Source: Bacteroidia bacterium (GTDB lineage: Bacteria; Bacteroidota; Bacteroidia; UKL13-3). Taken from it: a stretch of DNA of 32,420 bases. Shown one piece after another: positions 8,192-13,169 of the stretch (position 1 is its first letter; each line of letters starts with the position of its first letter). The position numbers and the translations under genes are program-made. The notes under the pieces are model-generated. The model had not been told where the DNA came from. It saw only the letters and a list, made by a program, of their open reading frames with translations, and ran no database searches. The DNA lies in NCBI GenBank assembly GCA_023151275.1, contig JAKLJI010000034.1, positions 1 through 32,420 of the forward strand, written 5' to 3'.

Positions 8192-8205
8192 TAAAATTGA
8201 TTGAA

Positions 8206-8817
8206 ATGGCTGATAGTATTGAGTTAAGAATAATTGACAGGGTAAAAAAGGCAAGGAGAGGAAGTATCTACTTTACTGAAAGTTTTCTCAAGTTTGGGAA
8301 TGCAAAAGCAGTAAGCAAAGCCTTAGAACGTCTTACACACAAAGGGGAGTTAAGAAGAATTGCGACAGGTTTGTATGCTCGTCCAATCATGGATCCAATC
8401 ATTGGTCCGGTAAATCCGCCAGTAGATGCCATTGCTCGTGCAATTTCCAAAAGAGATCGTGCTAGGATCATTCCATCCGGAGATTATGCCCTCAATTTAA
8501 TGGGCTTGTCAACTCAGGTGCCCTTGCAGGTGGTTTACCTTACAGATGGTTCAACCCGAAATGTGAAAATTGGAAAAAGGAGTATAACTTTTGTTCATAC
8601 TGCACCAAAATACCTAACTGCTAGAGGTGAATTAAGCGGCTTGGCCCTACAGGCACTAAGGACTTTGGGAAAGAATAGGGTAGATGATGATGAAATACTA
8701 AAAATTCAGGGATTCCTTAAAAATGAGAAAAAAGCCCATTTGGAGCATGATAAACTTCTAGCTCCGGTGTGGATTCAAAAAATTTTTGATTCAGTATTAA
8801 ACCAATTAAAAGAATGA
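8206..8817 (+). CDS. AbiEi-like antitoxin (DUF6088 family)
   Basis: The 203-residue product resembles the DUF6088/AbiEi antitoxins of type IV toxin-antitoxin systems. An N-terminal winged-helix region (about 5-60: IIDRVKKARRGSIYFTESF, then KAVSKALERLTHKGELRRIATGLYARP) is followed by a C-terminal domain with IIPSGDYALNLMGLSTQVPLQVVYLTDGSTRNVKIG and FVHTAPKYL. In characterised AbiE pairs this protein represses the operon and counteracts the nucleotidyltransferase toxin. ATG 8206 is preferred to a TTG nine bases upstream because it gives the normal MADS start. The stop overlaps the next gene by ATGA, the typical antitoxin-toxin coupling. Confidence 0.85.
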   Translation: MADSIELRIIDRVKKARRGSIYFTESFLKFGNAKAVSKALERLTHKGELRRIATGLYARPIMDPIIGPVNPPVDAIARAISKRDRARIIPSGDYALNLMGLSTQVPLQVVYLTDGSTRNVKIGKRSITFVHTAPKYLTARGELSGLALQALRTLGKNRVDDDEILKIQGFLKNEKKAHLEHDKLLAPVWIQKIFDSVLNQLKE

Positions 8818-10250
8818 ATAAAACATCAATTCAGGCGTGGAAGCAACTACCAGAAACCACTAGGCTAAACCTCTTAGAAGAAACTGGCATGGAATTGGGA
8901 ATTCCGGCAATGGCAGTAGAAAAAGATTGGTGGGTTGTAAGAACGCTTGAATTGGTGTTTTCGAGTTCAATAGCTAAGGCAACTGTATTTAAAGGAGGAA
9001 CCTCACTCAGCAAAGCTTGGGGGCTCATTGATCGGTTTTCGGAGGATATTGATCTTGCTTTGGATCGCAGGTTTTTGGGTGTGGATAAACCCGATTCTGA
9101 AATGGGAACAGCTCAGGTGGCCAAATTGAGAAGAAAGTCAGTAAGGTTTATCCAGGAGCATTTTGTCCCCGAGCTGTTCAATTTATTTCGGGAAATGGGA
9201 TTGGACGTTAATTTGCAGGTTCCTTTGCCTAATCCTACGGACCCCATAGTTATTGAAGTGATTTATCCAAGCATTACCCAGGCTATTTCCTACCTTGTTC
9301 CTAAGGTTTTAGTGGAAATAGGCAGTAGGTCTATGCTTGAACCCTTTGAGTACAAAGAATTCAGGTCTTTTGTTGGGGAGAAATATTCTTCCTTTCCTTT
9401 CGCGGATGGCTTGATCTGTTTACCCTGTGTTGATCCACAGCGGACTTTTCTGGAAAAGATTTTTTTGTTGCATGAGGAATTTCAATTACCAGATTCACAG
9501 ATGAAAATCCATCGTAAAAGCCGACACATGTACGACCTTGAAAAATTGATGGATTCTACTTTTGGTAAAAATGCACTTGAAAATCAGGTGCTTTATTCCA
9601 GAATTGTAAGTCATCGTGAGCGTTTTACACCCTGGAGTGGGATAAATTATGCGAAACATGCTCCCCATGATATTCAACTTATTCCCCCTAAGGCTTTACT
9701 AAGTGAATGGAAGAAAGATTATTTAGCAATGCAGCGAAGTATGTTTAAATCTCCATCGCTTTCCTTTGAAAAACTACTGGAAAGGCTTGAAATCTTGAAT
9801 CAACGGATACACGAAATTACCTTAACTGGCAAAGCATATCGCTTGCCCACAGAAGCAGAATGGGAATTTGCTGCTAGAGGAAAAACAAACACTCGCTATA
9901 ATACAGGGAATTGTTTAAGTACAGATCAGGCCAATTACGATGGAAATTATCCAGCCTCGGGATGTAATAAAGGCACATTTAGGCAACGCACAACCCGAGT
10001 GGGAACCTTCGCCCCGAATGAATACGGCTTGTACGATATGAGTGGGAATGTATGGGAGTGGTGTTTGGATTGGTATAATGAATACAGCGCCAGCAGTCAA
10101 GTTAATCCAATAGGGCCTTTTAAGGGCGCTCTACGCGTCATTCGTGGCGGCAGTTGGAACTACAGTGCCAGAGACTGCCGCATTTCTGACCGCTACAGCA
10201 ATAGCCCTAGAGACCACTTCAATGGCCTAGGCTTCCGTTTAGCCCGATAA
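8814..10250 (+). CDS. AbiEii-like nucleotidyltransferase fused to FGE/SUMF1-type variable domain
   Basis: The first ~336 residues form a complete AbiEii/AbiGii-type nucleotidyltransferase. Visible are FKGGTSLSKAW (59-69), SEDIDL (76-81, metal-binding D78 and D80), RTFLEKIFLLH (210-220) and RHMYDLEKLM (237-246); such toxins modify RNA or protein using NTPs. After ERLEILNQRIHEI, where AbiEii proteins normally stop, the frame continues into the C-terminal half of a formylglycine-generating-enzyme fold. This starts at YRLPTEAEWEFAARG (342-356), passes GLYDMSGNVWEWCLDWY (405-421) and ends RGGSW...GFRLAR. The N-terminal half of a true FGE is absent, so sulfatase-activating or similar catalysis is unlikely. 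The tail resembles variable proteins of diversity-generating retroelements. Coupled to the antitoxin gene by a 4-base overlap. Confidence 0.88.
   Translation: MNKTSIQAWKQLPETTRLNLLEETGMELGIPAMAVEKDWWVVRTLELVFSSSIAKATVFKGGTSLSKAWGLIDRFSEDIDLALDRRFLGVDKPDSEMGTAQVAKLRRKSVRFIQEHFVPELFNLFREMGLDVNLQVPLPNPTDPIVIEVIYPSITQAISYLVPKVLVEIGSRSMLEPFEYKEFRSFVGEKYSSFPFADGLICLPCVDPQRTFLEKIFLLHEEFQLPDSQMKIHRKSRHMYDLEKLMDSTFGKNALENQVLYSRIVSHRERFTPWSGINYAKHAPHDIQLIPPKALLSEWKKDYLAMQRSMFKSPSLSFEKLLERLEILNQRIHEITLTGKAYRLPTEAEWEFAARGKTNTRYNTGNCLSTDQANYDGNYPASGCNKGTFRQRTTRVGTFAPNEYGLYDMSGNVWEWCLDWYNEYSASSQVNPIGPFKGALRVIRGGSWNYSARDCRISDRYSNSPRDHFNGLGFRLAR
10134..10247 (+). other. Candidate DGR variable region (VR)
   Basis: This encodes residues 441-478 of the AbiEii-FGE fusion, at the extreme 3' end of the gene where DGR variable regions lie. 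From residue 449 to 471, 21 of 23 codons end in C or T, many of the form NAC, NAT, AGC or TTC. That is what adenine-specific mutagenesis of an AAC/AAT-rich template would leave. The invariant frame RGGSW, CR, DR and LGFRLAR matches FGE-type DGR targets. The GC-rich 3' end (about 10228-10247) would be the homing-initiation segment. No full template repeat is present in the window, so this is inference. Confidence 0.55.
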
Positions 10251-10259
10251 AAAAATCCA

Positions 10260-10336
10260 TAGCAGCAAGGCGGGCTTAGCCAGCAGGCGCCTCAAATAAA
10301 AAGGGGCGCCGGTGCAGCTAAGGCTTCTTGCTGCTA
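10260..10336. repeat. Nested 77-bp inverted repeat after the fusion gene
   Basis: Outer arms TAGCAGCAAG (10260-10269) and CTTGCTGCTA (10327-10336) pair perfectly. Middle arms CTTAGC (10275-10280) and GCTAAG (10317-10322) pair. Inner arms GGCGCCTC (10286-10293) and GGGGCGCC (10303-10310) pair with one G-U around a nine-base A-rich loop. There is no T tract after it on the plus strand, so it is not a standard terminator of the fusion gene. Hairpin or cruciform structures just past the variable region are required for target recognition in the Bordetella phage DGR; the parallel is inference. Confidence 0.65.
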
Positions 10337-10362
10337 AAAAAGTGCTATATCCAGTATAATAA

Positions 10363-10607: not shown

Positions 10608-10673
10608 TGAGAAAATTTCTCATATTATAGGTTGTAATGAATAGATTTAATTACTTTTGAGAATAATTCTCAA
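10608..10673 (+). promoter_or_regulatory. abiL promoter with two palindromic operators
   Basis: Two near-identical palindromes occur: TGAGAAA-A-TTTCTCA (10608-10622) and TTGAGAAT-A-ATTCTCAA (10657-10673), with centres exactly 50 bp apart. The second overlaps the -7 element TACTTTTG (10652-10659), which has a TTG 17 bp upstream (10632-10634). A dimeric repressor bound at both sites would block transcription of the ATPase-RloB operon, whose ATG is at 10685. The regulator is not obvious; it could be the downstream HTH protein or a protein encoded elsewhere. Confidence 0.7.
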
Positions 10674-12802: not shown

Positions 12803-12821
12803 AAACTATATTTTGCTTATT

Positions 12822-13169
12822 ATGACTGATAAAGCATTCGGAATGTGGTACGCTATGAGTGATCAGGCACTAGCTCGTCAAATCGGAGCTTTTGTAAAGC
12901 ATCAGCGGCTGGAGCAAAATAAAACACAGGATGCGCTGTCGCATGAAGCAGGCATTAGTCGTTCCACGCTCAGTTTATTGGAAAGGGGCGAAGCGGTCAC
13001 CTTGGCCACGCTGATACAAGTGCTTCGGGTGTTGGGTCAACTTCAGGTTATGGATGCCTTTGAGGTCCAGCAGACTATCAGTCCTCTTGCACTTGCTAAG
13101 GCTGAACAGAAAAAACGCAAAAGAGCAAGGAGTTCCAAAACACAGGAAACTGGAAAATCAGATTGGTAA
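12822..13169 (+). CDS. HipB-like XRE-family antitoxin/regulator (orphan)
   Basis: This 115-residue protein has a Cro/C1-type helix-turn-helix at about 20-75 (IGAFVKHQRLEQNKTQDALS, HEAGISRSTLSLLERGEAVTLATLIQVLRVL). Its C-terminus includes ISPLALAKAEQKKRKRAR and ends GKSDW. In Bacteroidota, near-identical architectures precede and overlap a HipA kinase toxin gene. Here no hipA follows: the sequence after the stop becomes GC-rich and non-coding. It is therefore an orphan antitoxin or a surviving half of a deleted hipBA pair, and might serve as a regulator for the island. ATG 12822 is preferred over TTG 12813. Confidence 0.85.
   Translation: MTDKAFGMWYAMSDQALARQIGAFVKHQRLEQNKTQDALSHEAGISRSTLSLLERGEAVTLATLIQVLRVLGQLQVMDAFEVQQTISPLALAKAEQKKRKRARSSKTQETGKSDW

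Follow-up and report, generated by a model that had tools for sequence, protein, structure and literature searches.

In the type IV toxin-antitoxin system AbiE, a two-gene abortive-infection operon, AbiEi binds inverted repeats in the promoter and exerts cooperative negative autoregulation (PMC7319586). RptR is a dedicated repressor of a defence island; several palindromes lie over the core promoter and are conserved with the operon (PMC12255303). AAA antitoxins have also been paired with TOPRIM_OLD toxins in a network where an RloB node is linked to the same AAA node, in work that also discusses AbiL (PMC10440598). Here we describe the promoter of an abiL operon of a Bacteroidia bacterium, on contig JAKLJI010000034.1. 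The window analysed is the whole of this 32,420-bp contig (C27), in an assembly of 3,903,213 bp (3.9 Mb) and 76 contigs. The kind of promoter and the relatives found likewise suggest Bacteroidota. The promoter carries two palindromes of the form TGAGAA-N3-TTCTCA, which are probably a dedicated operator that the AbiL proteins would bind to repress their own promoter. The operon belongs among the AbiL, PARIS and OLD-type pairs of an AAA and a Toprim protein. To our knowledge, how a toxic effector is restrained before infection in such AAA plus Toprim systems (AbiL, PARIS, OLD-like) is poorly understood, and a full-text literature search that reached its sources in part recognised no published operator or autoregulation for AbiL.

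Like AbiE, abiL is a two-gene operon, predicted to act in abortive infection, with inverted repeats in its promoter, and it would also share cooperative autorepression. Unlike in AbiE, its genes are unrelated to those of AbiE, and neither AbiLi nor AbiLii has a DNA-binding family in Pfam. RptR differs in being encoded by a separate first gene of its island and in binding the 6-bp sequence TAGCTA (PMC12255303). The abiL loci have no conserved third gene, and their palindromic unit is 15 bp long, TGAGAA-N3-TTCTCA. Regulators with a WYL domain reportedly co-localise with phage defence systems, in a study that also mentions inverted repeats (PMC9122601). These regulators and the abiL operator would have in common the transcriptional control of phage defence; the difference is that no regulator gene is conserved at abiL. 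The new aspect suggested by sequence is an operator control of toxin-antitoxin type whose binder, if it is AbiL, has no recognisable helix-turn-helix (HTH).

The two palindromes upstream of abiLi (Table 1) stand 50 bp apart from centre to centre; the sequence and a repeat search agree on both, as the initial annotation had reported. Promoter elements were placed by consensus: the TAnnTTTG sequence and the TTG upstream of it are presumably the -7 and -33 elements of the Bacteroidota promoter. The first TTG of site 2 forms the last three bases of the -7 element TACTTTTG, so the overlap of one palindrome with this element, also described earlier, holds. Site 2 covers the end of the -7 element and the predicted transcription start, and the centre of site 1 lies 37 bp upstream of the first base of this element. 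By this placement the palindromic operator overlaps the core promoter, as in autoregulated toxin-antitoxin operons. With site 2 over the -7 element and start, and site 1 just upstream of the -33 element, occupation should block the polymerase.

Table 1. Features of the abiL promoter and operon in the window.
Feature	Position	Strand	Basis and remarks
Site 1, palindrome TGAGAAA-A-TTTCTCA = TGAGAAAATTTCTCA	10608-10622	none	Sequence, repeat search; centre 10615
Site 2, palindrome TTGAGAAT-A-ATTCTCAA = TTGAGAATAATTCTCAA	10657-10673	none	Sequence, repeat search; centre 10665
-7 element TACTTTTG, TAnnTTTG type	10652-10659	+	Sequence and script
Candidate -33 element TTG	10632-10634	+	Sequence; 17 bp upstream of -7
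abiLi, AAA_21 ATPase, 428 aa	10685-11971	+	Pfam AAA_21 E 1.2e-37; PADLOC AbiLi E 8.2e-95
abiLii, RloB family, 240 aa	11956-12678	+	Pfam RloB E 3.6e-39; PADLOC AbiLii E 6.9e-32

The motif is close to exclusive to this promoter. Without mismatches, TGAGAAWNWTTCTCA has two matches in the 3,903,213-bp genome, both at the abiL promoter; allowing one mismatch adds two further places, against one for a reversed control pattern. Within the window alone, a count at two mismatches is unremarkable (3 matches, a number reached in 9/100 shuffles), so that the strength of the case rests on the two perfect copies and on the relatives. Across 22 operator-bearing genomes, the exact form TGAGAANNNTTCTCA occurs 25 times, with 19 occurrences at abiL promoters and 6 elsewhere; the exact site is absent in 8 of these 22 genomes, and a count of 6 is also obtained with the reversed control pattern in the same set. 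Five of the six exact sites away from abiL lie within open frames, and one, in the window's own genome, forms the centre of a longer hairpin that resembles a terminator. No promoter other than that of abiL carries the exact motif in the 22 genomes (mismatched sites were sought genome-wide in the window's own genome only), and an exact-motif regulon, in this genome or the 21 others, is accordingly rejected. By these counts, and by the scan for the motif pair described below, the operator is confined to the operon and moves with it, in the manner of toxin-antitoxin operators. The genome-wide scan proposed with the initial annotation gave exact TGAGAAWNWTTCTCA at abiL only in the window's own genome, and not the frequent motif that would have spoken against a regulatory role. 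At promoters, the exact motif was found at abiL and at no regulator gene.

The palindromes are conserved with AbiLi. Three relatives with AbiLi identities of 70%, 68% and 45% (L137, L138 and L139) have two upstream sites in similar placement, with 0 + 1, 1 + 2 and 1 + 3 mismatches respectively, and the rest of their promoters differs. We then compared 137 distinct AbiLi starts, taken from the matches listed in protein searches of genome samples (at most the best 30 loci per genome search), viral contigs and motif loci. Among the 32 AbiLi at least 44% identical to that of the window, TGAGAA-N3-TTCTCA is found upstream in perfect form in 22, with one mismatch in 9 and with two in 1. A site with at most one mismatch thus precedes 31/32 of these AbiLi versus 1/101 of the others, which have no perfect site, one site with one mismatch and two with two. 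The 101 leave out L032 (a copy of L331), the motif-found L096 and L133, and one entry with short upstream DNA; the pairs L084/L338 and L032/L331, whose contigs are of the same length, are each counted once. Seven of the 32 AbiLi come from motif-found loci; by hand count, of the 25 that protein searches yielded, the window's own among them, 15 have an exact site, 9 a site with one mismatch and 1 a site with two. The relatives in these counts are not independent of one another.

A scan of genome contigs for the motif pair only, followed by tblastn, led back to the same gene: among the 118 loci listed, 11 have AbiLi following the pair. These comprise 9 of the 28 loci assigned to Bacteroidota, one metagenome-assembled genome (MAG) labelled Goldiibacteriota and one labelled Deferribacteraceae, whose AbiLi is a 110-aa frame only. 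Outside the 32 close relatives, the core TGAGA-N5-TCTCA is present with at most one mismatch in 5 of 116 upstream regions (two of them motif-found), and the other 29 half-site orderings give at most 2 each and 7 in total. One of the five belongs to an AbiLi on a plasmid of Enterococcus casseliflavus, 36% identical and preceded by TTGAGAAAAAATCTCAA. The AbiLi of a viral contig (L202) is also preceded by a site.

On the AbiLi tree, where L339 and L202 were marked as operator-bearing by hand, the operator falls in one starred set of 36 entries (32 marked with it, 4 without), with three marked entries outside, and requires 5 changes versus 28 in shuffles. On the RloB tree, the operator entries group together, with no exception, as a starred set of 27; the place of L096 is unresolved. 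Constraining the operator entries to a single clade is not rejected for either tree (p 0.33 and 0.50). The two trees, compared over the same 76 entries, do not decide between AbiLi and AbiLii as the binder (3 against 2 changes).

Spacing and placement are also restricted. The consensus of 44 sites from 34 loci is TGAGAA-WWW-TTCTCA, with arms that are nearly invariant, partly because the sites were chosen by match, and a middle that is mostly A or T. Accepting pairs whose best site has at most one mismatch and whose two sites together have at most four, we obtained 25 pairs, 23 of which are spaced 39 (5), 49-51 (11) or 61-62 bp (7), so that the spacing falls in few classes. The two departing pairs, both with poor second sites, measure 40 bp (L333) and 42 bp (L336). 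Outside the rule stand L339, at 51 bp (2 and 3 mismatches), and the viral L202, at 58 bp (2 and 2 mismatches). These spacing classes were named post hoc and, for the AbiLi tree, set by hand, with L339 included and L333 and L336 excluded; on that tree they need at least 3 changes. In the motif-pair scan, among the matches listed, all 11 AbiL loci are spaced 39, 49-51 or 62 bp, and 18 of the 107 other loci are spaced 39, 49-51 or 61-62 bp.

We also measured how far sites with at most two mismatches lie from the start of the TAnnTTTG element nearest the start codon, in 25 of the 34 loci; the other 9, which have no TAnnTTTG, did not enter this measurement. The 42 sites lie at -48 (1), -36 to -38 (16), -26 (3), -17 (3), +13 (14), +22 (2) and +25 to +26 (3). 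Thus 30 of the 42 are at -36 to -38 or at +13, the first of which is also the placement of the window's site 1, and the offset steps are of about one helical turn. In 23 comparisons between loci of the same spacing, the arms agree at 515/552 positions, a figure biased upward because the sites were selected by match, and the DNA between the sites at 372/797.

Both genes are assigned to AbiL by their profiles (Table 1), the start of abiLii overlaps the end of abiLi, and the RloB-family gene lies directly downstream of the AAA_21 gene. On this sequence basis the pair is an AbiL system (AbiLi plus AbiLii), with a predicted role in phage abortive infection. AlphaFold models of the two proteins have mean predicted local distance difference test scores of 88.5 (AbiLi) and 92.4 (AbiLii). 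In a fold search, the AbiLi model resembles the ATPase heads of Rad50, PtuA and OLD. The AbiLii model is weakly like the C-terminal (Toprim) regions of OLD (VIA-align, Z ~7); this likeness is weak because the OLD entries stand below and among unrelated Rossmann-like ones, the best of all, at Z 8.0, being a lumazine synthase. Foldseek gave no match for AbiLii at E 0.001, and sequence searches for solved relatives reached the ATPase motif region only for AbiLi and nothing usable for AbiLii. The window's own genome contains a second AbiLi-RloB operon (L014 / L169, G000:C8:486-1769), whose AbiLi is 42% identical, falls in another AbiLi group on the tree and is not preceded by the palindromes.

In the mechanism we propose, a dimer would sit on each TGAGAA-N3-TTCTCA site. 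With both sites occupied, the -33 side and the -7/start side would be covered and RNA polymerase shut off. The bound protein may be AbiLi, as the antitoxin-like partner, AbiLii, as the Toprim-type and toxin-like partner, or a complex of the two, in an arrangement that would resemble autoregulated toxin-antitoxin operons. Since the operator is tied to the two-gene operon and its exact form occurs at no other promoter, binding by AbiL is the economical reading; repression, cooperativity and AbiL as the binder are what we infer from these observations. The preference of the paired sites for certain spacings speaks more for cooperative binding than for a free loop, and the looping put forward in the initial annotation fits spacings of 39, ~50 and 62 bp less well. 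That annotation rightly took the palindromes for promoter elements of a defence operon where a repressor would sit; its view that the regulator is encoded elsewhere found no support, as only abiLi and abiLii are regularly shared. More speculatively, phage infection would withdraw the complex from the operator, and AbiL synthesis would rise.

It is plausible, and we put it forward tentatively, that a Rad50-like AAA ATPase without an HTH, together with its Toprim partner, represses its own operon by recognising the sequence of paired palindromes set at preferred spacings, coupling the amount of the phage-sensing complex to its free or engaged state, with the linkage of operator and operon kept across several phyla. 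If the AbiL proteins do bind the operator, they would represent a repressor class of an unusual kind, and the operator could serve as a natural reporter of the complex leaving DNA to act on phage. With a conserved and dedicated operator, the regulation of AbiL can be tested directly, using the two proteins and a short DNA probe.

Several observations weigh against autorepression by AbiL. At E 0.001, Pfam gives no HTH or other DNA-binding family for the window's AbiLi or AbiLii. Nine of the 34 loci where a good site is present lack a partner site at a limit of four total mismatches. The best-fitting period is ~10 bp for the offsets from the -7 element and ~11.5 bp for the pair spacing, and this difference makes any phasing on the same face of the helix approximate. 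Four entries without the motif, on a long branch, belong to the AbiLi set of 36; counting them, 31/36 have a site with at most one mismatch. The motif is missing from most AbiL operons outside the group, in which no shared palindrome was found to take its place. In L118 (6147-8000), an AbiLi with two perfect sites has no adjoining RloB, and no RloB was found in that genome by a search run without a positive control; no RloB lies beside the AbiLi of L339 within the 409 bases to the contig end. These last two loci imply that AbiLii is not needed everywhere. In L118, the end of AbiLi differs and another gene directly follows.

The main competitor to autorepression by AbiL is a dedicated regulator whose gene lies elsewhere in the host genome and which would repress abiL through the sites. 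We consider it unlikely, though it would account for the lack of a DNA-binding family in both AbiL proteins and is beyond the reach of a neighbourhood analysis. Against it, the operator accompanies abiL in distant lineages (the Goldiibacteriota and Deferribacteraceae MAGs and, as one site, the Enterococcus plasmid), and the exact motif is not seen at any further promoter of the 22 genomes, where a regulator gene under its own control might have shown it. Among 25 operator loci, each covered over 2.4 to 19.5 kb, 25/25 contain AbiLi and 24/25 contain RloB, the next most common families occur in 3, and no regulator gene of WYL or RptR type is conserved beside the operon. As the operator is found with abiLi-abiLii in distant bacteria and only these genes are regularly common to the loci, the regulator is more likely AbiL itself.

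The palindromes might instead be recognised by the AbiL complex as a means of sensing DNA or of being kept in an inactive state, transcription control being a side effect. Rad50-like and OLD-like proteins bind DNA, and the AbiLi model, and more weakly that of AbiLii, resembles these folds; the preferred placement relative to the -7 element points to transcription, however, and leaves this explanation improbable. Very little probability remains for a global metal regulator of the Fur family. The form TGAGAATNATTCTCA resembles what we take to be the 7-1-7 box of that family, and by eye some pattern-scan matches in other phyla look like such boxes, but none of the six exact sites away from abiL stands at a promoter in the 22 genomes (exact sites only scanned), and conservation follows a 6-3-6 pattern whose A/T centre varies.

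Two neighbouring genes encode further candidates, the XRE protein (12813-13169) and the AbiEi-like protein (8197-8817). Both lie near the sites, and AbiEi proteins are known to autoregulate through inverted repeats (PMC7319586). However, a relative of the XRE protein at least 50% identical is present in 4/17 operator-bearing genomes, its own included, and neither protein has a tblastn match (E 1e-3) at the 118 motif loci listed. Both are disfavoured as the regulator and the idea is highly unlikely; the XRE protein is the HTH protein (given at 12822) that the initial annotation had offered as a binder. One XRE relative, 70% identical (G079:C31:121559-121903), is on the same contig as abiL, ~17 kb away, and L391 has a distant relative of 86 aa at 2.4 kb from abiLi. 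Chance palindromes or a leader RNA hairpin are scarcely credible: short palindromes are plentiful in AT-rich DNA, but conservation, exclusiveness and spacing speak against both, and site 1 upstream of the promoter and site 2 across the predicted start imply that neither would be wholly transcribed, against a hairpin.

AbiL operons without the motif have perfect palindromes only slightly above the level of shuffled sequence. TGTGAA-N3-TTCACA-like palindromes are seen upstream of AbiLi in L009, L010, L144, L153 and L210, in L009 and L210 as two overlapping copies, and perhaps represent an operator of altered specificity. In L162 and L163, whose two genomes fall in the same family-level group, the stretch 14-32 bp before AbiLi holds a perfect palindrome of 18 bp, ATTGAAAATATTTTCAAT.

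Upstream of the abiL promoter, positions 8814-10250 encode an AbiEii nucleotidyltransferase (residues 53-324, Pfam AbiEii) joined in frame to the C-terminal portion of an FGE-sulfatase domain (residues 340-478, profile positions 110-255). Apart from two matches of 40-50 bp, the DNA at 9780-10345 is unique in the genome. After this AbiEii-FGE gene, a GC-rich inverted repeat at 10260-10336, recognised by eye, is perhaps a terminator.
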